NCBI GenBank assembly: GCA_913047695.1
Contig: CAJWUI010000001.1
Location: forward strand, 186,001 to 250,000
DNA: 64,000 bases
Reading direction: 5' to 3'
Source of the DNA: an uncultured Bacteroidota bacterium
GTDB lineage: Bacteria; Bacteroidota; Bacteroidia; Flavobacteriales; Flavobacteriaceae
Below, piece by piece: positions 10,152-38,730 of this stretch (position 1 is its first letter; every line of letters starts with the position of its first letter). Both the position numbers and the translations under genes were made by a program. The notes below the pieces were generated by a model that was given only the letters and a program-made list of their open reading frames with translations, was not told the origin of the DNA and made no database searches.

Positions 10152-11408
10152 TTATCTAGGCCTCTCAGTAATAGTGGAGGTAAGTTCAAAGCATTCTAAA
10201 TCAAAATATGAGATAGATGCCAATAAATGGTCAAAAATATCTGAGGTTATTCTTTCATAATTAACCCAGGCTTTGTCATTACTGAAGGCATAAATTTCAA
10301 TTGGTATACCTTGTGTAGTTGGAGACAATTGTCTGCACATTATTGTCATTTCTGTGTTAATATTTTGATGTGAGTGAAGATAACTTTCTGCGTAGTATCT
10401 AAAGAGTCCCAAATTAGTAAGATTTCTTCCATTTACAAGGACACTTTTATCAATCTTTTTCTGTTTATTAAAGGATTCAATATCATTTTTCTTTTTTATA
10501 ATTAAATTTTTAATCAATTCAATTTTTGCAAGTGAATCTACTTCCTTCATATTGAGAAATCGTATACTGCTAATCTTAATTAATATGGAGCGTTTTATTC
10601 TTCTGCCTGAGGACTCATTCATACCTCTCCAATTTATAAAAGAGTCTGAAATTAATTTGTATGTTGGTATCGATGTAATTGTTTTATCAAAGTTTTGTAC
10701 TTGAACGGTAGAAAGACTTATTGATATAACGTCGCCATCGGCATTATTACCTGGCATACTTATCCAATCACCAATTCTTACTGTATCATTCACAGCAATT
10801 TGGACACTAGCTACAAAACCCAAAATGGTATCTTTAAAAACAAATAACAAAACTGCTGAAAGAGCTCCGAGAGCAGTTACAAAACTCCAAACATCTTTTC
10901 CAGTTAAAATTGATAGAATCAAAATAACTCCGATAAACCAAAGAAATATCATGACTACCTGAAGATAACTTTCCAGTGGTTTATCTTTTAGTGCAGGAAT
11001 TGTCTTAAGGTAATCGCTAATTGCCCTTAATAATGCCCTTACAATGACAATTAACACAATTATTGAAATTGCTTCTATAATATTTCTTGTCGCTACAAAA
11101 ACTCCATTATATGAATTCTCAAAAATGCTAGGCATATTTATATAAAGGAAAAGAAGAAAAGGTATATAGGATAATAATCTAGGAGCTTTATTCTTTATGA
11201 GAAAGTCATCAAAAGATGACTTAGTCTTTTTTGCTAGCTTATTAAAAATTAATATTATGATTTTTTTAGCTATTAGAAAGATAATTGTTGCTAAAACTAA
11301 GATTGAAAAAGACAATAGTAATAATGTGAAATTTTTTGACCACAAGTCAGAGAGGCCTTGACTTTGGAATAATTTTATTAAATAACTTTCAATCTTTAGG
11401 AAATCCAT
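10152..11408 (-). CDS. Mechanosensitive ion channel of the MscS/YbdG type
   Basis: A 418-residue inner-membrane channel. There are about five membrane segments in residues 20-215, ending in the Ala/Gly-rich pore helix region (TALGALSAVLLFVFKDTILG). A cytoplasmic beta domain follows with IGDWISMPGNNADGDV, and then the hallmark of the YbdG subgroup, WRGMNESSGRRIKRS. It releases solutes on hypo-osmotic shock. It is downstream of the PLP-decarboxylase gene with 13 bases between stop and start, so the two are probably co-transcribed. Its 3' end converges on the VPS10-type gene with 15 bases between the stops. Confidence 0.92.
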   Translation of the reverse strand: MDFLKIESYLIKLFQSQGLSDLWSKNFTLLLLSFSILVLATIIFLIAKKIIILIFNKLAKKTKSSFDDFLIKNKAPRLLSYIPFLLFLYINMPSIFENSYNGVFVATRNIIEAISIIVLIVIVRALLRAISDYLKTIPALKDKPLESYLQVVMIFLWFIGVILILSILTGKDVWSFVTALGALSAVLLFVFKDTILGFVASVQIAVNDTVRIGDWISMPGNNADGDVISISLSTVQVQNFDKTITSIPTYKLISDSFINWRGMNESSGRRIKRSILIKISSIRFLNMKEVDSLAKIELIKNLIIKKKNDIESFNKQKKIDKSVLVNGRNLTNLGLFRYYAESYLHSHQNINTEMTIMCRQLSPTTQGIPIEIYAFSNDKAWVNYERITSDIFDHLLASISYFDLECFELTSTITERPR

Positions 11409-12955: not shown

Positions 12956-14251
12956 TTAGAATCCAAATTGCCGCGGTAGCCAAAGTGTAATTTGTGGAAA
13001 AAAAGTAATTAGCATCAAGGACAGAATCATTGCAATAAAAAGTGGTAAAAGTGGCTTAATAACCTTTTCGATACTAGTTTTGACAACACCAATACCTACA
13101 AATAAAACTGATCCCACAGGAGGTGTGCACAATCCAATACATAAATTTAACACCATCATTATTCCAAATTGTATAGGATCAATTCCAATAGATTTGATAA
13201 TTGGAAGAAATATGGGAGTGAAAATTAATACAGCAGGAGTTATATCCATAAATATTCCGACAAATAGTAATATTAGATTAATCATCAGTAATACAATTAA
13301 TTTATTTCCACTAATGTTTAATATAAAAAGACTTAGAGCTTGTGGAATATTCTCAAAAGACATTACCCATGACATACATATCGAACAAGTAACCAAAAGC
13401 AAAACGATGGAGCTAGTTTTTGTTGAACTTAAAATAATACTTGATAGTTCATTAATTTTAATTTCATTATAGATGATCCCGAGCACTAGAGCGTACAAAA
13501 CTGCAATAGCTGAAGCTTCGGTTGCAGTAAAAAGACCCATTACAATTCCACCTATTACAATCAATAGTAACAACAAACTTGGTAAAGCATCAATAAAACT
13601 TGAAACAACATCTTTAATATTACTTTTATTAGAGGTTGGATATCCCTTTTTTTTGGCCCAAAAGAAAGCTACAACCATTAGAAAAAGACCAGTCAAAATG
13701 CCTGGGATGTAGCCTGCAAGAAATAGTGCTGCAATTGAGACTCCACCACTAGCCAAAGAATAAATTATCAATACATTGCTTGGAGGAATAATTAACCCAA
13801 TTGTAGATGATGTGATATTCACTGCAGCACCATACTCTTTATCATATCCTTCCTTTTTCATTTCAGGGCCAAGTATACTTCCCATTGCTGACGCTGAGGC
13901 CATTGCAGATCCTGCAATAGCACCCATTAGCATTGCTGAAATAATATTAATCAATGCCAAACCACCAGGTAAACTACCTACGAGTGTTTTAGCAAAGCGT
14001 ATTAGACGATGTGCAATTCCACCATTTGACATTAATTGACCAGCAAGAATAAAGAAAGGAATTGCAAGTAATGCAAAACTATCCAATGCTGTTGCCATGC
14101 GTTGTGCAATTGTTGTAGCGGTTATTATGCTTGGTAAGCTTACAAATAATGATAAAAAAGATGAGATTACAATACTCCACGCTATGGGTGTTCCCAAACC
14201 TATAAATAATAAAAAAGATATAGTAAGAACAAATACTCCTAAAAACTCCAT
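12956..14251 (-). CDS. dctM: TRAP transporter large membrane subunit (DctM family)
   Basis: A 431-residue hydrophobic protein with about 12 membrane helices and DctM hallmarks: LALLAIPFFILAGQLMSNGG near residue 60, SSTIGLIIPPSNVLIIYS near 150, and a late GLCTPPVGSVLFVGIG. It is the sodium-driven channel half of a tripartite periplasmic transporter. It is the last gene of the tight operon DUF1080-Gfo/Idh-uxaC-dctP-dctQ-dctM, three bases after dctQ. Linkage to uxaC makes hexuronate the expected substrate. Confidence 0.95.
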   Translation of the reverse strand: MEFLGVFVLTISFLLFIGLGTPIAWSIVISSFLSLFVSLPSIITATTIAQRMATALDSFALLAIPFFILAGQLMSNGGIAHRLIRFAKTLVGSLPGGLALINIISAMLMGAIAGSAMASASAMGSILGPEMKKEGYDKEYGAAVNITSSTIGLIIPPSNVLIIYSLASGGVSIAALFLAGYIPGILTGLFLMVVAFFWAKKKGYPTSNKSNIKDVVSSFIDALPSLLLLLIVIGGIVMGLFTATEASAIAVLYALVLGIIYNEIKINELSSIILSSTKTSSIVLLLVTCSICMSWVMSFENIPQALSLFILNISGNKLIVLLMINLILLFVGIFMDITPAVLIFTPIFLPIIKSIGIDPIQFGIMMVLNLCIGLCTPPVGSVLFVGIGVVKTSIEKVIKPLLPLFIAMILSLMLITFFPQITLWLPRQFGF

Positions 14252-14254
14252 AAC

Positions 14255-14713
14255 CTAAAATTCAATGTTTGATATTTTGTAGAAAATAATTAGTATGCCA
14301 CTCACGGGAATAATTGTGTAAACTAAACCTAAAGGTATTTGAAGTGATGGTGAATACTGTTCTAATTTTAAAGTGATATATACTAAAAATAGTCCTCCTA
14401 CAACCATGACAAAAAAAGAAAAAATTATTATTGAGAAACTGATGCACTTATATATAATTTTCTGATACTTAGAACTAAGTTTCCTTGAAAAATAGTCAAT
14501 TGAAACATGCTCATTTCTACCTGAAACATATGCTGCTCCAAGGATTCCTAGCCAAATCATAGAATATCTTGCAAGTTCATCTGTAAATGAGCTTGGATTT
14601 ATCAAAATATGACGAGCAAAAATTTGCCAAATAACATTTATGACCATTATTCCGAAAATAAAAATCAAAAGTTTTTCAACAACCTTATTTATTTTGTTTC
14701 TAACCTGCCTCAT
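14255..14713 (-). CDS. dctQ: TRAP transporter small membrane subunit (DctQ family)
   Basis: A 152-residue four-helix membrane protein with the usual DctQ pattern: a first helix ending in WQIFARHILINPSSFTDELARY (here split around the conserved R), WLGILGAAYVSGRNEHVSIDYF after the second helix, and two further helices. It scaffolds DctM. Its start overlaps the 3' end of dctP by 14 bases, which indicates translational coupling, and dctM follows three bases after its stop. Confidence 0.93.
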   Translation of the reverse strand: MRQVRNKINKVVEKLLIFIFGIMVINVIWQIFARHILINPSSFTDELARYSMIWLGILGAAYVSGRNEHVSIDYFSRKLSSKYQKIIYKCISFSIIIFSFFVMVVGGLFLVYITLKLEQYSPSLQIPLGLVYTIIPVSGILIIFYKISNIEF

Positions 14714-15701
14714 TACTAATTCTTTCTATTAACTGAGCCATTGTAGAGTCTTTTTCAAAAATTTTATAAATCTTTTTGGTTAATTTTTGAAAAGCTTTTT
14801 TCTCGGGATAAGAAACCTTTACTCCTGCGTCAATAACTGCTTTTAATGCATTTTTTTCTGCCTTTTCCCAAAGTTCCCTCTGATAAGATACCGATTTATT
14901 GACTGCCTCTTTAAGCCAATTTTTTTCTTCTTTATCTAGGCGATTCCACATATTCACACTAATAATTAAAATATCTGGTATCATGGTATGCTGATCTATA
15001 GAATAAAATTTGCATATTTCGTAGTGTTTTGATAAGTAAAAACTAGGGGAATTATTTTCTGCTCCATCTACTACGCCTTGCTGTAAAGCTGTGTACAATT
15101 CGCCCCATGAAATTGGAGTTGGTGAGCCACCTAAATTTTTTACCATATTAATTGCTGTAACACTTTCTTGAACCCTGATTTTTAGACCCTTTAAGTCTTT
15201 AGGTTCTGTTACCGGATGATTTTTAGTATAAAAACTTCTACTACCTGAATCGTAATAGCATAGACCCTTTAAAAAATATTTTTCCATTTCTTTTAATAGT
15301 TCTGTTCCTATTTGACCATCAAGAACTTTAAAAAGATGTTTTTTATCATCAAATAAAAAGGGTAAACTAAAAATTTTCAATTTAGGTGCAAAGTTTTCTA
15401 GTACTGCTGCAGAGACTTTGGTCATATCTAAACTTCCGATTTGAAGAAGTTCTAAACATTCACGTTCACTTCCAAGTTGTTGATTTGGATAGATCTTAAT
15501 TTGTAATTTTCCCTTAGAAAGTTTTTTAAGATTTGAATTTATATTCAACATAGCAAGGTGAACTGAATGATTAACATCTAGTCCATGAGCTAAACGAATT
15601 GTTTTTACGTTTAATTTTTTTTGGCAGCTTATAAAGCATGTAATGAATATAAACAGAACAAAATAAAAGATATTAGTAATAAAGATTCTGCGATATCTCA
15701 A
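14700..15701 (-). CDS. dctP: TRAP substrate-binding protein (DctP family), predicted lipoprotein, likely uronate-binding
   Basis: A 333-residue solute-binding protein of the TRAP DctP family. The binding-site arginine that salt-bridges a carboxylate is in KGLKIRVQ (R176), and the pocket motif VDGAENN is at 211-217. The DGAENN form recalls the uronate-binding branch, but that is memory of the family, not a search. The N-terminus has a long hydrophobic stretch ending FISC, a lipobox placing the lipidated Cys at 26. It is therefore predicted to be membrane-anchored rather than freely periplasmic. Its ATG overlaps the uxaC stop by four bases. Confidence 0.92.
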   Translation of the reverse strand: MRYRRIFITNIFYFVLFIFITCFISCQKKLNVKTIRLAHGLDVNHSVHLAMLNINSNLKKLSKGKLQIKIYPNQQLGSERECLELLQIGSLDMTKVSAAVLENFAPKLKIFSLPFLFDDKKHLFKVLDGQIGTELLKEMEKYFLKGLCYYDSGSRSFYTKNHPVTEPKDLKGLKIRVQESVTAINMVKNLGGSPTPISWGELYTALQQGVVDGAENNSPSFYLSKHYEICKFYSIDQHTMIPDILIISVNMWNRLDKEEKNWLKEAVNKSVSYQRELWEKAEKNALKAVIDAGVKVSYPEKKAFQKLTKKIYKIFEKDSTMAQLIERISNEAG

Positions 15702-17113
15702 AGAGTAAAATAATTTTTAGCATTATAGTAACTTAGATCGGAAACAATTTTTCCTATCATAGAATAATCTCTAGGTAAATGACCTCTTTCAATATCATTA
15801 CCAAATAAATTACATATTAACCTTCGAAAATATTCATGTCTTGGAAAAGATAAAAAGCTTCTCGAATCGGTTAACATGCCAATAAAACAACTTATCATTC
15901 CAATATTTGATAAGGTATTAATTTGATCTGTCATACCTTCTATTTGATCTAAAAACCACCAAGCAGAACCCCATTGTATTTTACCTTTAATGCTACCATC
16001 ATTAAAGTTTCCCAACATTGTTGCCATAACCTCATTATCTGCAGGATTTAAATTGTAAAGAATAGTTTTTGAAAGTTGGTTTTTTTGATCTAGGGCATCC
16101 AAAAATTTTGATAAAGTATTTGCTATTGGGTATTGCCCAATTGAATCCCAGCCACTATCAGCTCCAAGCAAGTTATACATTCGACTATTATTATTCCGCA
16201 TAGCTCCTAGGTGAAATTGTTGAACCCAATTAAATTTGTGATATTGTTCACATAAAAACGTAAGAATTGCAGTTTGAAACTTTTCAACTTCTTCCAACTC
16301 TAATATTTTCTTATTCCTACTTTTTTTGAAAATATTTTCAATTTCAGAAAGACTTGTCTTTTTATAAGGTAAGTATTCTAATCCATGGTCAGATAATCTA
16401 CATCCATGCACATTAAAAAAATTTATTCTTATTTCCAGAGCCTCGCATAAATGTTCAAAACTTCTTATTTTAATCATTGCAGAAGTTTCAAGATCATCTA
16501 GATATTTATTAAAGTTTACATTTTGGATATGAATAAATTTATCAGGGCGAAATGTTGGACTCATTTTGGTATAATGATCTGTTTTGCTGTATTCTATGTG
16601 ATATTTTAAGTTATCTTGAGGTTCATCAGTTGTGCAAACTTGTTCAACTTTCATTTTTTTTAGTAAAGACAGACAGCTAAATTCAGATGAGGTTGTCATT
16701 TTATTCGTTTGATGAAAAATTTCCTCTGCATTTTTTGCAGAAATTAAATTTGAAACGCCAAAATACCGGTAAAGTTCTAAATGGCTCCAATGATACAAGG
16801 GATTTCTTATCATTTGTGGAATTGTAGAACAATATTTCAAAAACTTTTCTTTTTGAGAGGCATTCCCAGTAATATATTTTTCACTAATTCCAAGAGTTCG
16901 AAGCGCCCTCCATTTATAATGGTCTCCTTCTAACCAGAGAGAGGTAATCGAATCATAAATTTTATCCTCACAAATTGCTTTAGGGGATAAGTGATTATGG
17001 TAGTCAATTATAGGTGAATCTTTTGCATAGTCGTGATAAAGTATTTTAGCACTTTTTGATTCTAAGAGAAAATCTTCATTTATGAAAACCTGATTAGTTA
17101 GAGATTCACTCAT
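15698..17113 (-). CDS. uxaC: Glucuronate (uronate) isomerase
   Basis: Converts D-glucuronate to D-fructuronate (and D-galacturonate to D-tagaturonate), the entry step of hexuronate catabolism, in the cytoplasm. The amidohydrolase-fold metal motif is DYHNHLSP (H39, H41), followed by the family's DHYKWRALRTLG segment and, in the C-terminal part, LTDSRSFLSFPRHEYFRR. The start at 17113 (MSESLTNQ) gives 471 residues, the usual length. An in-frame ATG at 17146 would extend 19 bases into the end of the upstream oxidoreductase gene and adds 11 residues unlike the family. It is third in the operon between the oxidoreductase gene (14-base gap) and dctP. Confidence 0.96.
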   Translation of the reverse strand: MSESLTNQVFINEDFLLESKSAKILYHDYAKDSPIIDYHNHLSPKAICEDKIYDSITSLWLEGDHYKWRALRTLGISEKYITGNASQKEKFLKYCSTIPQMIRNPLYHWSHLELYRYFGVSNLISAKNAEEIFHQTNKMTTSSEFSCLSLLKKMKVEQVCTTDEPQDNLKYHIEYSKTDHYTKMSPTFRPDKFIHIQNVNFNKYLDDLETSAMIKIRSFEHLCEALEIRINFFNVHGCRLSDHGLEYLPYKKTSLSEIENIFKKSRNKKILELEEVEKFQTAILTFLCEQYHKFNWVQQFHLGAMRNNNSRMYNLLGADSGWDSIGQYPIANTLSKFLDALDQKNQLSKTILYNLNPADNEVMATMLGNFNDGSIKGKIQWGSAWWFLDQIEGMTDQINTLSNIGMISCFIGMLTDSRSFLSFPRHEYFRRLICNLFGNDIERGHLPRDYSMIGKIVSDLSYYNAKNYFTL

Positions 17114-17127
17114 TTTAAAATTTTGAG

Positions 17128-18450
17128 TTAGACTTTTGGTTCCCATCCGGGAGCATATTCACGCTTCCAGTAATTGTCCACAATACTATTTAATATTTTT
17201 CCTGTTTTTGTGTCAATTTGAAGTGTCTTTCCTGAGTCTTGAGCCAAGTTTGCTAAATGACATAAGTGAGTTGATATACTAGCATCTTTTATCTCGGCAT
17301 TTAATGACTTATTATAACGAATAGAATCGAATAAATTTCCAACATGATTTTCATCTAAACCACCTTGTCCTCTTGTATCAATAGTTTTACTAACTGCACC
17401 TTCTTTTTCATGCTTTATTAAATTCCCACCCAAATCATACAATTTGTAAAAATTACGATCTAATTGAATACTACCTTTACTACCATAAATTGTAACCCCC
17501 CTACCTGGCTGTTTGGGTTGAATTAATCCTCGACTATGGCCGGTCCATGTAATAAACTTCCCATCTTGATATTTGAAAGTAACTTGCTGATTATCAACAA
17601 ATTCCCAGTCATCTTGGTAAGAATATTTTCCTCCAAATGAGGTTACGCTTTTAGGATAATTAACTCCTAATGCCCATCTGCAAATGTCGATTTCGTGAGT
17701 TCCATTATTGTGTACTTCTCCTGTTCCCCAATTTCGAAACCAGTGCCAATTATAGGGGTGTATATTATCCTTGTATGGAACTCTTGGAGCTGGTCCTTGC
17801 CAAAGGTCCCAATCTAAAAATTTAGGAACTTGGACTATTTTACCTATGCCAATTGATCCTCTATTATTTGAATAATATGCCTCGCCTTTATATACATCAC
17901 CAATTATACCATTTCTTATCTCATCAATTGCTAGAATACTTGTAATGGCTGACCTTTGTTGATTACCCATTTGAATTTTAGTGCCATACTTTTTTTGGGC
18001 GACTCCTAATAATTCGTTTTCATATAGATTGTGGCTACATGGTTTTTCAATATAAACATGTTTACCTGCTTGCGAAGCCATAATTGTCATGTGAGCATGC
18101 CAATGTTCAGGTGTTGCAATAAATACAGCATCTAAATCTTTATTTTCAATCAGTTTTCTGAAGTCCTTCTCAATTTTTGGAACATAACCAATATTCTTTT
18201 TACACCATTTATTGTTATCTTCAATGATTATATCGTCAACGTCACAATTAAAAATTATTTTTGAATTATTTTGACTATTTATTGCAGCAGCATGAGCTTT
18301 TCCTCTGCTTCTAACCCCAACTACCGCACAATTTATTCTATCATTTGCTCCAAGAATATTTTTACCGATAAAGAAATTAGAACTCGAGCTTGTTAATCCT
18401 ATTGTTCCTAAAGAGGTTTTTTTTATGAAATTCCTTCTTGTATTGCCCAT
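17128..18450 (-). CDS. Tat-exported Gfo/Idh/MocA family oxidoreductase (operon with uxaC)
   Basis: A 440-residue NAD(P)-dependent sugar oxidoreductase. The N-terminus has a twin-arginine signal (TRRNFIKKTS at 4-13) and a modest hydrophobic stretch. It is therefore expected in the periplasm with its nicotinamide cofactor pre-bound, as for known Tat-exported members. The Rossmann fingerprint is CAVVGVRSRGKAHAA (about 41-55) and the family motif EKP is in YIEKPCSHN. GEVHNNGTHEIDICRW supplies catalytic His/Asp candidates. It starts immediately after the DUF1080 stop (no gap) and precedes uxaC. The context suggests it oxidises a glucuronoside or related sugar, possibly at C3. That is inference, since the family has many substrates. 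Confidence 0.9.
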   Translation of the reverse strand: MGNTRRNFIKKTSLGTIGLTSSSSNFFIGKNILGANDRINCAVVGVRSRGKAHAAAINSQNNSKIIFNCDVDDIIIEDNNKWCKKNIGYVPKIEKDFRKLIENKDLDAVFIATPEHWHAHMTIMASQAGKHVYIEKPCSHNLYENELLGVAQKKYGTKIQMGNQQRSAITSILAIDEIRNGIIGDVYKGEAYYSNNRGSIGIGKIVQVPKFLDWDLWQGPAPRVPYKDNIHPYNWHWFRNWGTGEVHNNGTHEIDICRWALGVNYPKSVTSFGGKYSYQDDWEFVDNQQVTFKYQDGKFITWTGHSRGLIQPKQPGRGVTIYGSKGSIQLDRNFYKLYDLGGNLIKHEKEGAVSKTIDTRGQGGLDENHVGNLFDSIRYNKSLNAEIKDASISTHLCHLANLAQDSGKTLQIDTKTGKILNSIVDNYWKREYAPGWEPKV

Positions 18451-19842
18451 TTATAAATACCTGATTTTAATATTTTTAAATGAAACTTGGTCACCATGAT
18501 CTTGAAGGAGAATAACGCCTTCTGACCAGAGACCAAAATTGTCCCAAATTTTGTATTTACTTTTTTCAACCAAAGCCTGAAAGGATTGACTAAACCTGTC
18601 AAACTCAACAATTTTCACATGATTAAGCCAATGTTGTACATTACCATTATTTACTACAATACGGGCATTATTCCATTTACCTACACCTTTAAAATCTTTC
18701 ACACTCTCTCCAGGAACTCTATTTTCTGCTCTAATTAGGTCATATAAAGAACCAAGAGCTCTATTACCATTAACTCCGAGCTTGGCGTCCTCATGCCTTT
18801 GATCGTCAAGTATTTGAAATTCTAGTCCAATTGCAGAGCCATCTTCTTTATTAAGTTCTGGCTTGACTAAATATTTTATACCACTATTAGCACCTTCTGA
18901 GATTAAAAAATCTACACTTAATTCAAAATTTCTGAATTTTTCAATTGTAATAATATCTCCACCATTTCTAGCTTCTTTTCCATCGGAGGCTTCTACTGTA
19001 ATTATTCCATTGTTTATTTTCCAACCATTTTTAGGAAATGAACTTAATTTTGCTCCTCGCCAACCATTTGTTGTTTTACCATCCCATAACATTTTGAATC
19101 CTAAATTTTTTTCTTCTTCAGTAAGCATTCCATCTAAGTAACTTATTTGAGGTGCTTTATTATCTGCTGACATTCTATTTATTTCAAGATTTTCTGTGAG
19201 TATCCTAACATTTTTCCAACGCACTTTTTTTCCTACTTGATCAGAATTAGATATGCTATGCACTTGAAAAGCAATAAATCCTTTTAATGTAGTTTCATCG
19301 ACTAGATTAGAAATTTCTATGCCATTAATGAAAGACTTTATTTGATTTCCAATAGCTTCAATACGATATGAATTCCATGTCCCGTTTATAAATGCATTTT
19401 TACCAGTTGGGTTTCTTGATAAAGGGTAAAGCCAGCCTCTTCGAGCTTCATCGTATATGCCACCTGCCCACTTTCTTTGACTAGTTTCAATCTCACATTG
19501 ATATCCGTGGACTCTACCATTCATATAACTTTTAATGCTTTCACTTCGAAATTGAACCCCAGAATTTAGCCCATAATCTAGAAGAACATCAAATTCGAGT
19601 ATAAAGTCGTCATATTCAGCCTTAGTGGCTAAAAAACTATTAGGTGTATTGAGTTTTGATATTCCTGTAAGAATACCATTTTCTAATTTAAAGTCTGCTT
19701 TGCCATTAAGTTTGACGAATTGTTTTAAACTATTGTCTTTAAATAGATACTTCCATTCTGATTCCTGTGCATAAAGGGTAGAAACAAAATTAAATAAGAA
19801 TAAAAGTAAAAAAAGATGATATTTACTTAGTATTACGTTCAA
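18451..19842 (-). CDS. Tandem DUF1080 (3-keto-disaccharide hydrolase-type) protein, exported
   Basis: A 463-residue protein with a signal peptide (about 1-25, ending TLYAQ) and two DUF1080 / 3-keto-disaccharide hydrolase domains. These are concanavalin-like sandwiches at about 27-210 and 232-463. Each begins with a W-K-x-L-F or FKMLWDG strand and has the N-S-G-V/I-x-x-R/K core (LNSGVQFRSE in the first, GANSGIKYLV in the second). A DQVSFKNIKIRYL-type last strand closes the second. Recent work ties such proteins to cleavage of 3-keto-glycosides made by Gfo/Idh/MocA enzymes. It is first in the operon and abuts the oxidoreductase gene, an arrangement that fits that two-step chemistry. Domain duplication within one chain is less common than the single-domain form at 33064. 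Confidence 0.88.
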   Translation of the reverse strand: MNVILSKYHLFLLLFLFNFVSTLYAQESEWKYLFKDNSLKQFVKLNGKADFKLENGILTGISKLNTPNSFLATKAEYDDFILEFDVLLDYGLNSGVQFRSESIKSYMNGRVHGYQCEIETSQRKWAGGIYDEARRGWLYPLSRNPTGKNAFINGTWNSYRIEAIGNQIKSFINGIEISNLVDETTLKGFIAFQVHSISNSDQVGKKVRWKNVRILTENLEINRMSADNKAPQISYLDGMLTEEEKNLGFKMLWDGKTTNGWRGAKLSSFPKNGWKINNGIITVEASDGKEARNGGDIITIEKFRNFELSVDFLISEGANSGIKYLVKPELNKEDGSAIGLEFQILDDQRHEDAKLGVNGNRALGSLYDLIRAENRVPGESVKDFKGVGKWNNARIVVNNGNVQHWLNHVKIVEFDRFSQSFQALVEKSKYKIWDNFGLWSEGVILLQDHGDQVSFKNIKIRYL

Positions 19843-19945: not shown

Positions 19946-21139
19946 ATGGACTCTCGAAGAGACTTTTTAAAAAAAACTGCGCCAGCTATTGCTTTTCCAT
20001 TAGTGAGCTCTAACTCTCAGTTGTTTTCAATTTTTAAGAAATTTCCTTCAAATAGACTCAATATTGGTGTTATTGGTACAGGAGACAGGGGCCAAGGTTT
20101 GATGAGATTAATAAAAAATATAGATGGTATCGAATTAGTTGCATTTTGTGACATACTACCATTTAGAATTAAACAAGCTTCTGCAATAGCTCCAAAAGCA
20201 AAAAAATATAAAAGTCATTTAAAGTTGTTGTCGCATAAAAATTTAGATGCAGTAATTATAAGCACCCCACTAAATACGCATTGTAGCATTGCTTCAGATG
20301 CTGTTGACGCCTCAATGAACATTTATTGTGAGAAGACAATGGTTAAAGGTGATAATGAAACTATTGAGCTACTGAAAAAAGTCAAAAATAACCACAACAA
20401 AATATTTCAGACAGGACACCAATATCATAGTTCAAGACTATATTCTTATTTAGTTGAAATGATTCAGGCTGGCGAAATTGGCAAGGTTAGTTCAATTCAA
20501 GCTCAATGGAATAGAAATGGAAATTGGCGTAGACCAGTTTCAAATTCAAAATATGAGCGTCAAATAAACTGGCGTATGTATAGAGAATACTCCTATGGAC
20601 TTACAGCTGAATTGAGTTCGCATCAAATTGATTTTAGTAATTGGCTCTTAAAAAGTAGTCCACACAAAGTTGCAGGATTTGGTGGAATTGATTTTTGGAA
20701 AGATGGTAGAGAGACCTATGACAATATTCACTTAGTTTATTCATATCCAAATGGAGTAAAAGCTTCATTTACTTGCCTAACTTCAAATGCGAAAGATGAT
20801 TATCAAATAAAGGTCATGGGGGAAAATGCTACGATCCTGATTGATCACCAGAATGCTTGGAAATACCCAGAAGGAAAATACAATAAAATAATTAGTGATG
20901 TTGACGGAGTGTCTGGAGCTACAGCAAGCTGGGAAGAAGGAAAAGGGAATAAAATTAATTACAATCATAAGGATCCTACAATTCAGGCTCTGGAAGATTT
21001 TCGCTCATCTATAATTAATAATACGACACCTTTATCTAACGTTAATACAGGTGCCGCTGTATCCTTCGCAGTTCAAATGGGAATTGATGCTATGGATAAA
21101 GAGCAAGTTATTTCATGGAACACAAAATATAATATTTAG
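19946..21139 (+). CDS. Tat-exported Gfo/Idh/MocA family oxidoreductase (operon with uxuA)
   Basis: A 397-residue oxidoreductase with an N-terminal twin-arginine motif (SRRDFLKKTAP at 3-13), a Rossmann fingerprint (NIGVIGTGDRGQGLM, about 40-54) and the family's EK-containing motif as YCEKTMVKG, with T where P is usual. The segment AELSSHQIDFSNWLL carries the catalytic His/Asp region. It is only moderately similar by eye to the minus-strand oxidoreductase, so it is a distinct member, not a duplicate. It starts the plus-strand operon, and the SDR gene begins one base after its stop. The two divergent oxidoreductases may act in opposite directions (oxidise, then re-reduce) on one sugar, which is a guess from context. 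Confidence 0.9.
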   Translation: MDSRRDFLKKTAPAIAFPLVSSNSQLFSIFKKFPSNRLNIGVIGTGDRGQGLMRLIKNIDGIELVAFCDILPFRIKQASAIAPKAKKYKSHLKLLSHKNLDAVIISTPLNTHCSIASDAVDASMNIYCEKTMVKGDNETIELLKKVKNNHNKIFQTGHQYHSSRLYSYLVEMIQAGEIGKVSSIQAQWNRNGNWRRPVSNSKYERQINWRMYREYSYGLTAELSSHQIDFSNWLLKSSPHKVAGFGGIDFWKDGRETYDNIHLVYSYPNGVKASFTCLTSNAKDDYQIKVMGENATILIDHQNAWKYPEGKYNKIISDVDGVSGATASWEEGKGNKINYNHKDPTIQALEDFRSSIINNTTPLSNVNTGAAVSFAVQMGIDAMDKEQVISWNTKYNI

Positions 21140-21140
21140 A

Positions 21141-21944
21141 ATGTTTGATTTAAAAGATAAAGTGATTGTTTTAACTGGATCTACCGGTGTATTAGCTTCC
21201 GCTCTAGCAATAAGTTTAGCCAAAGCGAAAGTAAAGCTTTTTATTTTAGGTAGAAATAAGAATTTGTTACTTGAATTAAAAAAATCAATTGAGAGATATA
21301 CGGTTGTTGAATATTATGTTGCTGATGTTTTAGAAAGATCTGAATTAGAAACAGTTTGTGCTTCTATTGTAAAAAAAACAGGACGCATAGATGTTTTGAT
21401 TAATGCTGTTGGAGGAAATCTTCCTGGAGCTGTAATACCTGACGAAAAATCTATCTTTGATTTATCTGAAAAAGATTTTGATAATGTTGTAGACTTAAAC
21501 TTGAAAGGTACCATATTACCTTCAATTGTTTTTGGAGAAGTTTTATCCAAGCAGGGTAGTGGAAGTATAATTAATTATTCTTCTATGACGGTTGATAGAG
21601 TAATTACAAGAGTTGTTGGTTATTCTGCCGCAAAAGCTGCAATGGAAAATTTTACAAAATGGATGGCAGTTGAAATGGCATTAAAATTTGGTGACGGGAT
21701 AAGAGTTAATGCAATAGCTCCTGGTTTTTTTATAGGAAAGCAAAATAAAAGTCTTTTGTTAAATGAAGATGGAAGTCTAACTGAACGTGGTGAAAAAATT
21801 ATTAAGAATACACCCATGAAAAGATTTGGAAAACCTGAAGAATTAAATGGTGCTATTCATTTTTTATGTAGTGATAGCTCAAAATTTGTTACTGGTATCG
21901 TTTTGCCAGTTGATGGAGGATTTAGCGCATATAGTGGTGTTTAA
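21141..21944 (+). CDS. uxuB: SDR-family D-mannonate oxidoreductase / fructuronate reductase
   Basis: Predicted to interconvert D-fructuronate and D-mannonate with NAD(P)H, between UxaC and UxuA. The 267-residue protein is a classical short-chain dehydrogenase. The cofactor motif is TGSTGVLAS (about 12-20), with Ala where the last Gly is usual. NAVGGN follows strand 4, the catalytic Ser is in NYSSMTVD, and YSAAK gives the Tyr/Lys pair. A C-terminal FVTGIVLPVDGG strand is typical. It is the SDR form of UxuB, not the long-chain mannitol-dehydrogenase form. The start at 21141 is one base after the preceding stop. An in-frame ATG at 21051 lies inside the oxidoreductase gene and is rejected. uxuA follows 13 bases later. 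Confidence 0.85.
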   Translation: MFDLKDKVIVLTGSTGVLASALAISLAKAKVKLFILGRNKNLLLELKKSIERYTVVEYYVADVLERSELETVCASIVKKTGRIDVLINAVGGNLPGAVIPDEKSIFDLSEKDFDNVVDLNLKGTILPSIVFGEVLSKQGSGSIINYSSMTVDRVITRVVGYSAAKAAMENFTKWMAVEMALKFGDGIRVNAIAPGFFIGKQNKSLLLNEDGSLTERGEKIIKNTPMKRFGKPEELNGAIHFLCSDSSKFVTGIVLPVDGGFSAYSGV

Positions 21945-21957
21945 TTTTATCTAATAA

Positions 21958-23136
21958 ATGAAAGAATCTTTTAGATGGTATGGGCCTGATGATCCTGTTG
22001 GATTGAGCGACATAATACAATCTGGTGCAACGAATGTTGTTTCAGCACTTCATCAAGTTCCAAATGGATCCGTTTGGGAAAAAGATTCTATCAAAGCATA
22101 CAAGGAAATCGTCGTTAAAGCTGGACTTGACTGGGAAGTTGTTGAGTCAGTCCCTATCCATGAGGATATTAAACGCCGTGTAGGCAAATATAAGCAACAT
22201 ATTGAAAATTATAAGAAAACAATTGAAAACCTTTCGAAATGTGGTATATACAATATTTGCTACAATTTCATGCCAGTTCTAGATTGGACACGGACACATT
22301 TACACTACCACATGAAAGATGGCTCAACAGCATTATACCTTGATAAAACTGCTTTAGCTGCATTCGATTTATTTATTGTAAAAAGAAAAAACGCAGAAAA
22401 GCAATATAATGAAAATAAAATTTTAGAGGCAAAAAAATATTATGATATCCTCACCAAAGAGGAGGTCGAAACACTTTCGATGAGTATTATAGCTGGTTTA
22501 CCTGGTTCAGAAGAGAAATATTCTCTAGAAAAATTTAGAAATCAATTAGAATATTATGAATCAGTTAGCAAGTCTGATTTACAAAAAAATTTAATCTACT
22601 TTTTAGAAGAGATTATACCGACTGCAGAAAAATTTGGTGTAAGGATGTGTATTCATCCAGATGACCCTCCATTTGATTTGTTCGGAATACCAAGAGTTGT
22701 AAGTACTTATGAAGATTTAAATTTCATTTTTAAAGCTATTCCTTCACTTTCAAACGGCTTAACATTTTGTACGGGTTCACTAGGAGTTCGTCCTGACAAC
22801 AATCTGATAGAAATTTTTCACAAATTCGCGGAACGAATACACTTTCTTCATCTAAGAAGTACAAAACGAGATGATAAAGGTAACTTTTATGAAGCTAACC
22901 ATTTAGAGGGTGATTTAGATATGTTTCAAATAGTCAGAGCAATTTTAATTGAAGAAAAAAAGAGAAAAAAAGTTAATCGATCAGACTGGAAAATTCCAAT
23001 GAGACCAGATCATGGGCATCAAATGTTAGATGATTTAAATAAAAAAACAAATCCTGGGTATTCTGCGATAGGAAGGTTAAGAGGATTGGCTGAAATCCGA
23101 GGACTAGCTCTAGGAATTGATAAAACATTATTTTAA
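21958..23136 (+). CDS. uxuA: D-mannonate dehydratase
   Basis: Dehydrates D-mannonate to 2-keto-3-deoxy-D-gluconate in the cytoplasm, using Fe(II) or Mn(II). The 392-residue length is normal. Family hallmarks are visible: FRWYGPDDPVGLSDI at the N-terminus, YNFMPVLDWTRT, the metal site CIHPDDPPFDLFGIPR (about 230-245) and the terminal MRPDHGHQMLDD. It sits 13 bases after the SDR gene. No kinase or aldolase for its product is adjacent. The PfkB kinase at 31423 looks like a fructokinase rather than KdgK, so the next steps are presumably encoded elsewhere. Confidence 0.97.
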   Translation: MKESFRWYGPDDPVGLSDIIQSGATNVVSALHQVPNGSVWEKDSIKAYKEIVVKAGLDWEVVESVPIHEDIKRRVGKYKQHIENYKKTIENLSKCGIYNICYNFMPVLDWTRTHLHYHMKDGSTALYLDKTALAAFDLFIVKRKNAEKQYNENKILEAKKYYDILTKEEVETLSMSIIAGLPGSEEKYSLEKFRNQLEYYESVSKSDLQKNLIYFLEEIIPTAEKFGVRMCIHPDDPPFDLFGIPRVVSTYEDLNFIFKAIPSLSNGLTFCTGSLGVRPDNNLIEIFHKFAERIHFLHLRSTKRDDKGNFYEANHLEGDLDMFQIVRAILIEEKKRKKVNRSDWKIPMRPDHGHQMLDDLNKKTNPGYSAIGRLRGLAEIRGLALGIDKTLF

Positions 23137-23201: not shown

Positions 23202-23942
23202 ATGAAGAAAAATTTATTAATATTAATCTTTTTTATAAATCTAATTGGGTTTGCTCAAAACCAGTATTATGAAATCCGCAAATACGAACTCCCATTTAAT
23301 TCTTCCGAGGATAAACTTCATGAATATTTTTCAAAAGTTTTAATACCAGCTTTAAACCGTTACGGCGTCAAAAATATTGGTGTTTTTAAAACTCTAGGCG
23401 ATCCCATACCCAAGGAAATTTATCTATTTATTCCCTATAAAAATGTCTTACATTATGGAAATATCTTAAAAGAATTAAGTAAGGATAGAACCTACTTGAA
23501 CTCACGTAAAATTTATGACGGAGTACCAGAAAGTAAAAAAGTTTACAACCGATATCATGTATCTTTTTTGACAGCGATTGATGGACTTCCAAAGCTGATA
23601 AAACCTAAACGGGGATCTAATTTATTTGAATTGAGGATTTATGAAGGTTATAGTGAGGATGCTGTTAGAAGAAAAATAGAAATGTTTAATAAAGATGAAC
23701 TAAAAATTTTTGATGATACAGGATTATATTCTGTTTTTTTTGGAGAGCAAATTTCAGGGCCATTAATGCCCTCACTTACTTATATGCTAGCTTTTGAATC
23801 TATGGAGGAGAGAAATACTAATTGGAAAAAATTTTCAGCAGATCCGAATTGGAAAAGGATTTCTAATTTAGACAAATATTCAAAAACAGTTTCAGATATC
23901 AAACGCACTTTTTTGATACCATTAGATTACTCACAGTTGTAA
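23202..23942 (+). CDS. NIPSNAP family protein, exported
   Basis: A 246-residue protein with a signal peptide (about 1-19, ending IGFAQ) and two ferredoxin-like NIPSNAP repeats. The first begins QYYEIRKYELP (about 21-31) and the second LFELRIYEGYSEDAVRRKIEMF (in two parts), each an alpha/beta dimeric barrel half. NIPSNAP proteins frequently accompany sugar-catabolic genes in Bacteroidota, but their biochemical role is not established. It follows uxuA by 65 bases on the same strand and could be the last gene of that operon. It converges on the inositol oxygenase gene with four bases between the stops. Confidence 0.85.
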   Translation: MKKNLLILIFFINLIGFAQNQYYEIRKYELPFNSSEDKLHEYFSKVLIPALNRYGVKNIGVFKTLGDPIPKEIYLFIPYKNVLHYGNILKELSKDRTYLNSRKIYDGVPESKKVYNRYHVSFLTAIDGLPKLIKPKRGSNLFELRIYEGYSEDAVRRKIEMFNKDELKIFDDTGLYSVFFGEQISGPLMPSLTYMLAFESMEERNTNWKKFSADPNWKRISNLDKYSKTVSDIKRTFLIPLDYSQL

Positions 23943-23946
23943 AAAA

Positions 23947-24810
23947 TTAAAATTTTAGAGTTTTGGGGAGATATTTAGATACTAAATCCTCATAGTAAGG
24001 TCTTAATGCATTACTATCAGGAGGTACAGGTGCTTTAGAATACAAATCGTAGGCATTGAACTTTCTTACCCAATCAAACATTTTTAGATCAGTATCACTC
24101 ATAAGATAATCGTATGCATGTTCTTTGTGTTGAGCATAAAATGAATGATATCTTATCATATATAGAGCTTCTTGGGGAAGATAATCCTTTACGATTTGGT
24201 ATAAATATTCATCATGACCCCAGCTCATTTTCACATTATCTAATCCACAATTTTCTTTGTAAATACCGAATTTTGTATTGTATTCGGTATTACTGCTGTC
24301 TGGATTTAATGAAAAATATTCTGAATGAACAATTGATTTTGAGAATGAGCAACCAACGGGAAAAGTATCACCAACAACTGCCCACTGTGGTTCGCCAAAA
24401 AGACAGAGTACTTTACCAACGTCATGCAGAAATCCAGTCAAGACAAACCAATCAGGATGACCGTCAGATCTAATTGCTTCAGAGGTTTGCAACAAGTGTT
24501 GTAATTGGTCTAATTCTATATCAGGGTCACTATCATCAATTAAAGTATTTAAAAACTCTACTGCATCCCATAGTGACATTTCTCGCTCTTTGAATTGTAG
24601 AAATCTATTTTCTTTTTCACAAACAAAATCATAGGATTGATATTTATGGTTGAGTTTATAAAACTGTCTTACAGTTTCTGCTCTTTCAGAGTTTTGATAA
24701 TCTCTGAATTCCTTATGAGATTTTTCATTTTTATTTTCAGGATAACGTTTGATCAAGTCATCTTCCCAATGTTCTATGCTTCCAAGGGGGTTCAAGTTAT
24801 TTAAATCCAT
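23947..24810 (-). CDS. Myo-inositol oxygenase
   Basis: Non-haem di-iron enzyme that cleaves myo-inositol with O2 to D-glucuronate. The 287-residue length matches animal and plant MIOX. All six iron ligands known from mouse MIOX align with residues here: H105 (LQHLLQTSEAIR), H129 and D130 (FLHDVGK), H199 (SWGHDEYLY), H222 (IRYHSFYAQH) and D255 (FNAYDLYSK). Substrate-contact segments such as GHPDWF and GDTFPVGC are also present. There is no signal peptide, so it is cytoplasmic. Its product is the substrate of UxaC encoded 7 kb away in the same locus, making a complete route from inositol to KDG. It is transcribed alone, convergent with the uxuA operon. Confidence 0.95.
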   Translation of the reverse strand: MDLNNLNPLGSIEHWEDDLIKRYPENKNEKSHKEFRDYQNSERAETVRQFYKLNHKYQSYDFVCEKENRFLQFKEREMSLWDAVEFLNTLIDDSDPDIELDQLQHLLQTSEAIRSDGHPDWFVLTGFLHDVGKVLCLFGEPQWAVVGDTFPVGCSFSKSIVHSEYFSLNPDSSNTEYNTKFGIYKENCGLDNVKMSWGHDEYLYQIVKDYLPQEALYMIRYHSFYAQHKEHAYDYLMSDTDLKMFDWVRKFNAYDLYSKAPVPPDSNALRPYYEDLVSKYLPKTLKF

Positions 24811-28970: not shown

Positions 28971-31325
28971 TTAAAATTCGATTTCAGTTGGAACATTAGC
29001 TTTTAAATTTATAAATTTCTCAGTTCCATTATAAATTACCTTTTTTTGTGAATCATCTTTTGATATCAAATCTAGTTTTTTAAGGCTATTGTTTTCCCAT
29101 TCTATGCTAACTGTTATATTTCCTCTTGCTTTTAAACCCCTTACAATTCCGTTTTCCCAACTATTTGGTAGTGCAGGTAAGATTCTAATTATATCCGATT
29201 CGTGTGATTGCAATAGTGATTCAGTAACACCAGCTGTATATCCAAAATTTCCATCGATTTGAAACGGTGGGTGTGCATCAAAAAGATTAGGGTAAATAGA
29301 TTTTTTTAAAAGCAGTTCTATATGTTCTTGTGTCATTTTCTTATCCATTAAACGAGCTGCGCAATTAATTAACCATGCCCGACTCCAACCTGTACCAGCA
29401 CCTCCATTTTCTAGTCTGTATTCTAAAGTTTTTCGAACGGCTTTGAACAAAGCTGGTGTTTTTGTTAATGTGACTTGATCGCCCGGATGAAAACCATAAA
29501 GGTGAGACATATGTCTATGGCCTGGCTCTAACTCTTTGTATTCTCGATCCCATTCTAAAATTCTACCATCTGTTCCTAACTGAAAGCCAGATCTTAGTAT
29601 CTTAAGCTGCTTTTTAATTTTTAATGCTAACTCATCATTAATGCTTAGCATTTTACTTGCTTCGAGATAGTTTGTAAAAACCTCATTAATAACCTGCTGA
29701 TCCATGGCAGTTCCGAGACAACTTGCCACAGCGACCCCATTTTTATTGATATATCTATTTTCTGGTGAGGTGGAAGGAGCTGAAATTAAGCTTCCATCTC
29801 TTTGATCTTCAATTAGCCAATCGCTATAAAAGAGCGCAACTGATCTTATGACAGGGTAAGCCCGATTTTTTAAAAAATTGAAATCTTTTGTAAACAAATA
29901 GTGCTGCCAATAGTGTTGGGCCATCCAACCTCCAGCACCAAAGGAAACACCCCAATATGCAGTTGGAGCTCTAAGCCATGTTGGACCCCATATATCGGTA
30001 GCATGAGGTAAAAATGATCCTCTAGTACCGAAATTTTTTCTTGCTGTTTCTTTGCCATTTTGAATAAGACGATCTACAAAATCAAATAAAGGCATGTTTA
30101 ATTCATCTAGTTGAGTTAGGTTTGCTAACCAATAGTTCATTTGAAGATTAATATTTAAATGATAATCTGCATTCCAAGGAGCATTGATATGTGGGTTCCA
30201 AAGACCTTGAAGATTCGCAGGCAGGGTGCCTGATCTAGATGATGATATAAGCAAATACCTTCCAAAGTGAAATAATGTTTCTTGTAGCTCTATATCTGAG
30301 CCCCCATTTTTTATTGCCTCTAATCTCTTGTCTGTAGGAATTTTTTGTAAACTATTATCCGTAACTATATCGAAAATCACTCTATTAAAAAACAACTGGT
30401 GGTCTTTAACATGCCTTAACTCTAATTCGTTAAGACTAAAACCCTCTAAATTTTTTAGTTGTTTGATGTTTTGAATTTGATAGCTATCGTGATAATATGA
30501 TGAATTAGAGACTATGAATAGCTTAAGTTCTTTTACTCCCTTAAAAGAAACAGATTCTCCTTGAGCTTTAAGCGTTCCTCCAATATTTTCTGCCTTTAAT
30601 TTAGTCTCAAACTTAACGCCTTTAGTGATAGGCGCAGCTTTTGAGTCAAATCTCCCTTCACGCTGAGTTATCTCACCATTCATTATTAACAAACTGTCTT
30701 TAACAAAAGTTATTGCTGTTGGAAACCCTTTGTCATTTCTTCTTCCAAGTTTCACCTCTCCATTTAAACCATTTGGATGATCGCTTTTGATGAAATAAAC
30801 AATGGCTTGATCTTTTGCTGAAATAAAAACTTTTTGTGAAACTGGATACCCGTCAGCTTTATATTTTACACTTGCAATAGCTTTATTTAAATTCAAAGAG
30901 CGTTTATATTCAGTAATGTCGTTATGCTCGAAATTTATTATTAAATCGCCAAGGGTTTGATGAGATCGAACTATTGTCTTGTTTGAGAATTTTTTTACTA
31001 GCATAGAGTCAGCTTTCTGATTTTCGTAATTGAAAAGCATTTCTCTGATTTCTTTAAGGTCATCAGCATTCCCTTTTGGATGCTCCCATCCCATATCTTT
31101 GGGCCACAATGAATCGTCATTTAATTGGATCTTTTCATTTTTGGGATTGCCAAAAACCATAGCCCCTAATCTCCCATTTCCAATTGGTAAGGCCTCCTCC
31201 CATTCGTCAGCAGCTTTCTCAAACCAAATGATTTGTTCTTTCTCATAAAGATTATCACTTTTATTTTGGCATCCTCCAAAAAATAAAACAATTAATAATA
31301 AAAAGTGATAAAAAAAATTTTTCAT
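28971..31325 (-). CDS. GH95 family glycosidase (alpha-L-fucosidase / galactosidase type), lipoprotein
   Basis: A 784-residue lipoprotein (signal ending FFGGC, Cys19). The protein aligns along its length with GH95: an N-terminal beta-sandwich (WEEALPIGNGRLGAMVFG at about 37-54), then an (alpha/alpha)6 barrel. Catalytic-site segments of the family are visible: WNADYHLNINLQMNYW, SAPSTSPENRY with the general-acid Glu, and FQIDGNFGYTAGVTE with the conserved Asp. GH95 enzymes release alpha-1,2-L-fucose or alpha-L-galactose by inversion, and the specificity cannot be decided here. It converges on the TonB receptor gene and is divergent from the PfkB kinase gene. It is about 4 kb from the GH29 gene. 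Confidence 0.93.
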   Translation of the reverse strand: MKNFFYHFLLLIVLFFGGCQNKSDNLYEKEQIIWFEKAADEWEEALPIGNGRLGAMVFGNPKNEKIQLNDDSLWPKDMGWEHPKGNADDLKEIREMLFNYENQKADSMLVKKFSNKTIVRSHQTLGDLIINFEHNDITEYKRSLNLNKAIASVKYKADGYPVSQKVFISAKDQAIVYFIKSDHPNGLNGEVKLGRRNDKGFPTAITFVKDSLLIMNGEITQREGRFDSKAAPITKGVKFETKLKAENIGGTLKAQGESVSFKGVKELKLFIVSNSSYYHDSYQIQNIKQLKNLEGFSLNELELRHVKDHQLFFNRVIFDIVTDNSLQKIPTDKRLEAIKNGGSDIELQETLFHFGRYLLISSSRSGTLPANLQGLWNPHINAPWNADYHLNINLQMNYWLANLTQLDELNMPLFDFVDRLIQNGKETARKNFGTRGSFLPHATDIWGPTWLRAPTAYWGVSFGAGGWMAQHYWQHYLFTKDFNFLKNRAYPVIRSVALFYSDWLIEDQRDGSLISAPSTSPENRYINKNGVAVASCLGTAMDQQVINEVFTNYLEASKMLSINDELALKIKKQLKILRSGFQLGTDGRILEWDREYKELEPGHRHMSHLYGFHPGDQVTLTKTPALFKAVRKTLEYRLENGGAGTGWSRAWLINCAARLMDKKMTQEHIELLLKKSIYPNLFDAHPPFQIDGNFGYTAGVTESLLQSHESDIIRILPALPNSWENGIVRGLKARGNITVSIEWENNSLKKLDLISKDDSQKKVIYNGTEKFINLKANVPTEIEF

Positions 31326-31422
31326 AAAACGTGACTTGACATAATTATTAAAGTTATATTAAAAAATTAGAATTTATATGTAGACAAATTTTTAAATATT
31401 TAAACGTATTTTGAATGTATTA

Positions 31423-32322
31423 ATGGAAAAAATGGGGTCAAAAAAAATTATTTGTTTTGGTGAGGTCCTTTGGGATCATTTTCCAGATGGTAAAAAATTG
31501 GGGGGAGCTCCCTTTAATGTTACAAATTCACTCAAAAATTTTGGGGCTGATGTTGATTTTATTAGTAGGGTAGGAGATGATGATTTAGGCAATGAAATAC
31601 TAAAACTCATGCAAAATAATAACATCTGTACAGACTACATACAAGTTGATCCTTACCATGTGACTGGAAAAGTTGCGGTAAGTTTAGATAGCAGTGGTTC
31701 TGCAAAATATAATATAATTAGTGATGTTGCATGGGACTTTATCGAGCCTAAGGAGGAGATTTTTGAATTAGTTAAAAATTCCTATGCCCTTATTTATGGG
31801 AGTTTAGCTGCAAGATCTGATTCATTCAAAACATTAGACTCTCTATTAGATTTGGCAAAGTTCTCTGTTTTTGATTTGAATCTGAGAGCTCCACACTATA
31901 ATCTAATTTTAATAGAAAATTTAATGAAGCGCTCAGATATGCTCAAGTTTAATGATCAAGAACTTTTGTTTGTAGCTGATTCAATGAATTCACCCTTCAG
32001 CTCAATTAAAGAACATGTGAAATTTATTTCAGAAAAAACTAATACGGATATAATCTGCGTTACAATGGGAAGTAAAGGAGCTATTCTGTATCATACTGGG
32101 GAGTGGTTTAATTGCAATGGATTTAAAGTTAATGTTGTTGATACTGTGGGCGCAGGAGATTCATTTTTGGCAACACTTGTATTTAATTTAATTTGTGAAA
32201 ATAATTTGAATGATGCACTGGAGAAGGCTTGTGCAATGGGTGCACTTGTTTCATCACATTCTGGTGCAAATACAAAAATTTCCGAAGATGATTTATATGA
32301 ATTTATCGATAAAGGTTTATAG
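31423..32322 (+). CDS. PfkB-family carbohydrate kinase, fructokinase-like
   Basis: A roughly 299-residue ribokinase-fold sugar kinase. N-terminal ICFGEVLWDHFPDGKKLGGAPFNV (in two parts around KK) and DFISRVGDDDLG are of the fructokinase type. The catalytic signature DTVGAGDSF is near residue 243. 2-keto-3-deoxygluconate kinases normally show a different GGAELN-type substrate loop, so fructose or a close relative is the better guess. Starts at 31411 (TTG), 31423 (ATG) and 31432 (ATG) are all in frame. The family usually begins just before KKIICFGE, so 31423 or 31432 is likely. It is divergent from the GH95 gene. Confidence 0.85.
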   Translation: MEKMGSKKIICFGEVLWDHFPDGKKLGGAPFNVTNSLKNFGADVDFISRVGDDDLGNEILKLMQNNNICTDYIQVDPYHVTGKVAVSLDSSGSAKYNIISDVAWDFIEPKEEIFELVKNSYALIYGSLAARSDSFKTLDSLLDLAKFSVFDLNLRAPHYNLILIENLMKRSDMLKFNDQELLFVADSMNSPFSSIKEHVKFISEKTNTDIICVTMGSKGAILYHTGEWFNCNGFKVNVVDTVGAGDSFLATLVFNLICENNLNDALEKACAMGALVSSHSGANTKISEDDLYEFIDKGL

Positions 32323-32352
32323 GTTTAATTTGCTTAATATTGCTTCTTTCTT

Positions 32353-34005: not shown

Positions 34006-34007
34006 GC

Positions 34008-35027: not shown

Positions 35028-35283
35028 TTAAAATAATAACTGAATTCTAATATATTTTTTTGTAGAATCAGAAGAGTAGTATTTGATTTATAATTTTAAT
35101 TAATTTATTTGTCGTTCCGAAAATATAAAAATATGAAAATTGAAGGATAGATTTTGATACCTATTTGAACAGAGGTTATTTTGATAAAAACCTAAATTTA
35201 AATTTAAGTAACGAAAAATTAGTAGTTTTAATTTGACAGTTAATTATACAATTAACTTATAAATTTAATTCAGCAACCATTAT

Positions 35284-37089: not shown

Positions 37090-37184
37090 TTTTATTTTAA
37101 TTTATGCTTTAATCAGATTTCCCAGGTATGTATTTATTTGTCATAAAAAGTATATTTTTTTTAGGTGCCTATATTGGTTAAGCT

Positions 37185-38726: not shown

Positions 38727-38730
38727 GACT

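Follow-up and report, generated by a model that had tools for sequence, protein, structure and literature searches.

How glucuronate is released from its glycosides is the question raised by a 64,000-nucleotide stretch of contig CAJWUI010000001.1 (positions 186,001 to 250,000; assembly GCA_913047695.1, an uncultured member of the Flavobacteriaceae), hereafter called the window, in which genes for glucuronate import and catabolism directly adjoin genes for two exported proteins, a tandem DUF1080 protein (TD1080) and an oxidoreductase of the Gfo/Idh/MocA family with a twin-arginine translocation (Tat) start (Gfo1). Glucuronides are widespread constituents of algal polysaccharides, of plant glycans and of host conjugates; hydrolases and lyases are the enzymes to which their release is commonly attributed. 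There is good support for a link of the exported tandem-DUF1080/Gfo module with uronate use, and we give about an even chance to the reading that the module frees glucuronate from uronosides in the periplasm by oxidation, elimination, hydration and reduction through 3-keto intermediates.

The genes coding for TD1080 (18451-19842, 463 aa), Gfo1 (17128-18450), the glucuronate isomerase UxaC (15698-17146) and a tripartite ATP-independent periplasmic (TRAP) transporter form a block of six same-direction genes on the minus strand (12956-19842), the spacing between them being 0, -19, -4, -14 and 3 bases. The transporter is represented by the hexuronate-type solute-binding protein DctP (14700-15701), a DctQ-like small subunit (14255-14713), named from its position between DctP and DctM and from the conserved neighbourhood, and the large subunit DctM (12956-14251; PF06808, 409.1 bits). 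The six-gene operon without meaningful gaps described in the initial annotation is thus real, with spacing from -19 to 3 bases on one strand, but the range given for it, 15698-19842, covers the first three genes only. Also overlooked were the gene for a myo-inositol oxygenase (MIOX) and a divergent operon, separated from the TD1080 operon by 103 bases and consisting of the genes for a second Tat-exported Gfo/Idh/MocA oxidoreductase (Gfo2), a short-chain dehydrogenase/reductase (SDR), UxuA and a NIPSNAP-domain protein.

It is as good as certain that the locus serves glucuronate catabolism. UxaC (PF02614, 652.6 bits) passes the NCBIfam glucuronate isomerase model NF002794 with 580.8 bits (cut-off 387), the SDR (21141-21944, plus strand) passes the model of the SDR-type D-mannonate oxidoreductase (fructuronate reductase) NF006132 with 342.4 bits (cut-off 281), and UxuA (21958-23136, plus strand) passes the mannonate dehydratase model TIGR00695 with 544.8 bits (cut-off 199.55). 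MIOX (23947-24810, minus strand; PF05153, 355.4 bits with a Pfam cut-off of 25) belongs to a family which converts inositol to glucuronate, and no signal peptide is visible in its sequence. Both UxaC and MIOX have a single match in the whole assembly.

The transporter points to the same compound. The six solved chains nearest to DctP (PF03480) are 4n8y, 4ovr, 4x8r, 4mij, 4mhf and 4n91, of which 4n91 binds D-glucuronate and 4mhf both D-glucuronate and D-galacturonate, the contacts common to the glucuronate binders being two arginines and one asparagine (PMC7660916). These contacts are occupied in DctP by R155, R176 and N216, as placed from the alignment to the solved chains and the published spacing rather than by aligning DctP directly with the numbered protein. 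Judged by its sequence, DctP is a TRAP binder of the uronate type.

TD1080, a putative 3-keto-glycoside eliminase/hydratase, matches PF06439 in two stretches (256.9 bits), which account for two of the nine such stretches in the assembly. Its nearest solved structure, with 56% identity over the length, is the likewise tandem BT3469 (4jqt), known by structure only and titled a putative glycosyl hydrolase. According to a Foldseek search with a model of TD1080 (predicted local distance difference test score, pLDDT, 82.6), the C-terminal half matches 8tda and 8v31, titled 3-keto-2-hydroxy-glucal hydratase, as well as 8rr2 and 9fbe, titled 3-keto-glycoside eliminase/hydratase and complexed with 3-keto-glucose or 2-hydroxy-3-keto-glucal. 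The PF06439 domain and the fold of the BT2157/AL2-type eliminase/hydratases are thus present in TD1080, but those enzymes are single-domain proteins; since TD1080 has two domains and its nearest full-length match is the tandem 4jqt, it probably works like the BT2157/AL2 type while standing outside that subfamily.

hhalign aligns the N- and C-terminal halves of TD1080 with a probability of 94.6. The paired positions N93/N319, D131/D368, N157/N391, N173/N407, Q193/Q447 and H195/H449 are nearly invariant, each being present in 119-120 of the 120 tandem proteins, and in one pair the residues are swapped, with Q115 and E117 of the N-terminal half opposite E341 and Q343 of the C-terminal half, each present in all 120. 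The two halves may split elimination and hydration between them. These domains also bear on the suggestion that free sugar acids are the substrates of TD1080 and the exported oxidoreductases, which might for instance epimerise or dehydrate unusual uronic acids by way of a 3-keto form, with no glycoside cleavage: a TRAP binder of this type takes free uronates, and Gfo/Idh/MocA enzymes are generally capable of transient-oxidation chemistry, but two eliminase/hydratase-related DUF1080 domains with matching kept positions would be left unexplained, and we consider the suggestion very unlikely.

Gfo1, a putative glycoside 3-dehydrogenase, has a twin-arginine start (RRNFIKK) and GFO_IDH_MocA domains. 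Its nearest solved chains by sequence are 8tdf and 8tdh, the former being the Alistipes glucoside-3-dehydrogenase AL3, while a fold search (model pLDDT 73.7) placed DgpA-type and other Gfo enzymes first and 8tdf at rank 7. The best NCBIfam match of Gfo1 is the BT_2158 glycoside 3-dehydrogenase family (NF058561), with 167.2 bits. The same family is the best match of Gfo2 (19946-21139, plus strand; assigned with Pfam), whose 99.5 bits are below the cut-off of 750. Twin-arginine starts are the rule among relatives of Gfo1 (43/47), of Gfo2 (31/33) and of a third type, Gfo3 (50/50), found in other loci. The 3-keto chemistry proposed in the initial annotation is supported by this homology, which links TD1080 to 3-keto-glycoside eliminase/hydratases and, more weakly, the oxidoreductases to glycoside 3-dehydrogenases.

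If the enzymes act as their relatives do, Gfo1 and/or Gfo2, exported folded by the Tat system with bound NAD, would oxidise a glucuronoside at C3. TD1080 would then take the C2 proton, expel the aglycone and re-hydrate the resulting 2-hydroxy-3-keto-glycal, steps that its two unequal domains may share, and a Gfo enzyme would complete the redox cycle by reducing 3-keto-glucuronate to glucuronate. Glucuronate would be imported by the TRAP transporter and converted by UxaC, the SDR and UxuA to 2-keto-3-deoxygluconate, a stage that MIOX could also supply with glucuronate made from inositol. Import and catabolism are strongly suggested by the family matches, the type of chemistry of the first three steps is predicted from homology, and we presume a uronide as the substrate, a division of labour and a redox cycle.

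Such a route could take the place of a classical glucuronidase. The assembly (1.96 Mb, about 89% complete) contains no match to GH67, GH115 or GH88, which extends to the whole assembly, and to GH88, the earlier statement that the window has no GH67/GH115-type hydrolase, with about a tenth of the genome possibly missing and with GH1, GH3, GH4, GH30, GH79, GH105 and polysaccharide lyases outside the search. Two GH2 proteins are present, one a LacZ-type beta-galactosidase and the other a 951-aa protein below the cut-off of every listed NCBIfam model. Two query proteins picked by eye gave no sugar-phosphate-isomerase-like eliminase in the window.

The neighbourhood of tandem DUF1080 genes was compared in three sets of loci, numbered with the letter L: 80 close loci, the best of 270 relatives and including the genus of the window; 40 distant loci, chosen mostly by score from 65 tandem-carrying genomes (in L220 the tandem gene was found by tblastn, although no tandem open reading frame was called there); and 40 hand-chosen, non-random control loci with a single-domain DUF1080 gene. 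Three single-domain genes close to a tandem gene, two in other genomes and the one at 33064-34005 of the window, were excluded from the controls, which are not perfectly clean since L265 and L271 also match the tandem protein (40% or more). UxaC or UxuA was found near the DUF1080 gene in 44/80 close and 6/40 distant loci and in 0/40 controls (distant versus control, Fisher P 0.026), the close loci having UxaC in 37, UxuA in 27 and DctP in 18 cases. A Gfo gene immediately adjoins TD1080 in 100 of the 120 tandem loci (66 close and 34 distant). The idea that any DUF1080 gene tends to adjoin UxaC was rejected on the empty control set.

Within the genus of the window two forms of the operon occur (the labels PmoA, LacI, SusC, SusD, KdgK, Eda and RbcL were assigned by eye). 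In the first, as in the window, Gfo1, UxaC and TRAP genes come after TD1080, and in the second it is followed by Gfo3, a PmoA-like protein, a single DUF1080 protein, LacI and SusD/SusC, with UxaC past SusC in four loci (L121, L122, L124 and L126); L143 and L145 are hybrids combining Gfo3 with UxaC and TRAP. The divergent Gfo2-SDR-UxuA genes are retained in most adequately flanked loci of the genus, L079 and L080 differing there.

In the loci L061-L087 and L108-L129 of this one genus, the Gfo gene next to TD1080 alternates between two unrelated Tat types (about 30% identical), a swap which mostly carries the downstream genes along. On the contig shared by L066 and L112 (L066:7474-10189) Gfo1 runs directly into DctP with no uxaC between them.

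Other genera and families show the same genes in different arrangements. In Maribacter, Kriegella and Aurantibacter, UxaC and TD1080 are divergently arranged; the order is TD1080-Gfo1-SDR-UxuA-UxaC in a metagenome-assembled genome of Saprospiraceae (L132), DctPQM-TD1080-UxaC in L222 and Gfo1-TD1080-SDR-UxaC in L251. In L221, from another family, TD1080-Gfo1 is followed by a protein of the tagaturonate epimerase family (UxaE), and L223 has a gene of UxaE size at the matching position; the distant tandem genes have 190 neighbours without a label, and among the 91 of these that were scanned UxaE was matched twice and GH28 four times. A quirk of a single genus was rejected as the source of the TD1080-UxaC link, which recurs in these varied gene orders. 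Just upstream of the three genes in L221 lies a GMC oxidoreductase gene (L221:7075-8811), which may mean that Gfo is replaced or assisted there by a dehydrogenase of the flavin type.

The same sets of loci bear on the possibility that this is an inositol locus, where glucuronate is the product of MIOX from myo-inositol, and inositols or their glycosides are the substrates of the Gfo enzymes. MIOX does lie within the cluster, and Gfo1 and Gfo2 give weak matches to IolG-type models, but with 77.0 and 75.0 bits they are far under the cut-off of 355 for inositol 2-dehydrogenase IolG (TIGR04380), DctP is of the uronate type, and no tandem DUF1080 gene was found in 20 wider MIOX regions of other genomes. 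MIOX accompanies only 10/80 close and 0/40 distant tandem loci and was rejected as the core of the locus. A search of the literature gave no account of an inositol oxygenase with a glucuronate isomerase in Bacteroidetes. We consider an inositol locus very unlikely, although MIOX itself competes with uronosides as a possible source of glucuronate in the cluster, as taken up below.

Co-occurrence was also assessed at the genome level. Among 385 Bacteroidota genomes, the tandem protein was found in 65 (E <= 1e-90) and UxaC in 135 (E <= 1e-50), and UxaC is present in 62/65 genomes with TD1080 versus 73/320 without it (Fisher P 1e-29, uncorrected for kinship). In a smaller genome set it is present in 7/7 tandem genomes versus 5/13 genomes in which single-domain DUF1080 proteins alone pass the cut-off (P 0.015). 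TD1080 and UxaC are located at most 15 kb apart in 9 of the 62 genomes, with 0.44 expected for 4.2-Mb genomes, so most of the 62 carry the two genes apart. The conserved neighbourhoods, this co-occurrence and the uronate-type binder support, far outside the window as well, the proposal of the initial annotation that the exported pair is linked to glucuronate catabolism.

The main rival is a broader module which happens to yield uronates: the exported pair would be a 3-keto-glycoside module for various or neutral sugars, which either oxidises a neutral residue bonded to a uronate, the latter then departing as the aglycone, or is only co-regulated with uronate use, both substrates stemming from one mixed polysaccharide. 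The characterised relatives are of the glucoside type by their structure titles, the gut Gfo enzyme D3dgpA is inactive on apigenin-7-O-glucuronide (PMC11239390), genes for GH95, GH29-type fucosidase and sulfatase occur in the window itself, and some distant tandem loci adjoin GH127, GH43, GH2, GH3, rhamnosidase or sulfatase genes. On its own this explanation accounts neither for UxaC in nearly all TD1080 genomes nor for the recurrent UxaC, UxuA and UxaE neighbours, which the single-domain controls lack, and we consider it rather unlikely.

Several of these observations nevertheless weigh against a uronide-specific module. The inactivity of D3dgpA means that uronide use cannot be assumed for the family, the score of Gfo1, far from the cut-off of 750, places it outside the BT_2158 family, distant loci carry neutral-sugar hydrolases, and MIOX offers another origin for the glucuronate. 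UxaC/UxuA were not seen in the examined region of 36/80 close loci, many of these regions being incomplete, or of 34/40 distant loci, and no uronate gene was found in the region examined of the Arenibacter loci (11 tree rows). The genome-level co-occurrence ignores kinship and a general sugar-eating lifestyle. On a tree of the 120 tandem proteins, with 14 rows unscored and with L221 and L223 scored by hand as uronate-linked on UxaE (confirmed for L221 only), the uronate label requires at least 15 changes, and only three labelled rows fall into a part of 28 rows. The remaining 92 rows, rich in uronate labels, were compared with these 28 by residue in search of carboxylate-binding positions: basic positions (R143, R371 and K427) do separate the 92-row part, but they could not be placed in the TD1080 pocket and no carboxylate site emerged. 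R380, typical of most rows in that part, is a serine in TD1080, and K323 is no marker of the part, being present in all 120 proteins.

With these points taken into account, freeing of glucuronate from uronosides by the exported module is still the reading that we prefer. A wider proposal, that the tandem DUF1080 protein is a two-domain eliminase-hydratase which together with a Tat-exported Gfo enzyme forms a Bacteroidota-wide, uronide-dedicated periplasmic branch able to replace classical glucuronidases and feeding TRAP transporters, is tentative and, on balance, less probable than not. If it is true, such an oxidative route would be less tied to one linkage and overlooked by present enzyme annotation, would help to explain uronide use by genomes without recognised glucuronidases and could handle glucuronides poorly cut by hydrolases; the conserved operon makes the idea directly testable, and BT3469 is a solved homologue from a laboratory species. 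Our search of the literature, which did not cover a 2024 paper on the AL/BT pathway, found no uronide version of DUF1080/Gfo cleavage.

The closest known counterpart is the Bacteroides BT2157/BT2158 and Alistipes AL2/AL3 system (8tda, 8v31, 8tdf), which likewise combines a DUF1080 protein with a Gfo dehydrogenase; TD1080 can be aligned along 8v31/8tda with its C-terminal half, and Gfo1 is nearest to 8tdf by sequence. Unlike that system, in which the DUF1080 protein is single, the module described here is tandem and tied to UxaC, UxuA and TRAP genes, and both Gfo1 and Gfo2 fall outside the BT_2158 and BT_2159 families. We know of no uronide activity for the Bacteroides and Alistipes system. A DUF1080 protein also takes part in the LacABC lactose route of Caulobacter, whose dehydrogenase we take to be of the GMC type. 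There, as proposed for TD1080, periplasmic oxidation precedes the DUF1080 protein, but the substrate is a neutral disaccharide and the DUF1080 protein is single (PMC9007349). The levoglucosan and Agrobacterium oxidation-elimination-hydration-reduction pathways have the step order proposed here, with a sugar-phosphate-isomerase-like eliminase and a hydratase, no DUF1080 protein and neutral sugars according to the available text (PMC10628242). Hexuronate TRAP systems such as STM3169 share the binder contacts and the UxuA/UxaC neighbours, and no exported DUF1080/Gfo module is described for them in the available part of the source (PMC7660916). Thermogutta DUF1080 proteins proposed for xanthan are tied to a glucuronate-containing polymer, but the cut is proposed in the glucan backbone and not at glucuronosyl bonds (PMC5673643).

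Several neighbouring genes were recorded in addition. The NIPSNAP-domain protein (23202-23942, plus strand; PF07978) has a signal-peptide-like start and adjoins UxuA in 14 same-genus regions including the window (cluster c10). Downstream of the TRAP genes, on the same strand, a PLP-dependent decarboxylase (PF00282; 11422-12891) and a membrane protein (10152-11408) are encoded, as in many loci of the genus. The region 28971-41463 of the window contains genes coding for GH95, a PfkB-family kinase, DUF6503, the above-mentioned single-domain DUF1080 protein, cytochrome c, alpha-L-fucosidase, an SSF transporter, a luciferase-like protein and sulfatase, and is possibly a fucose-rich glycan region beside the glucuronate locus.

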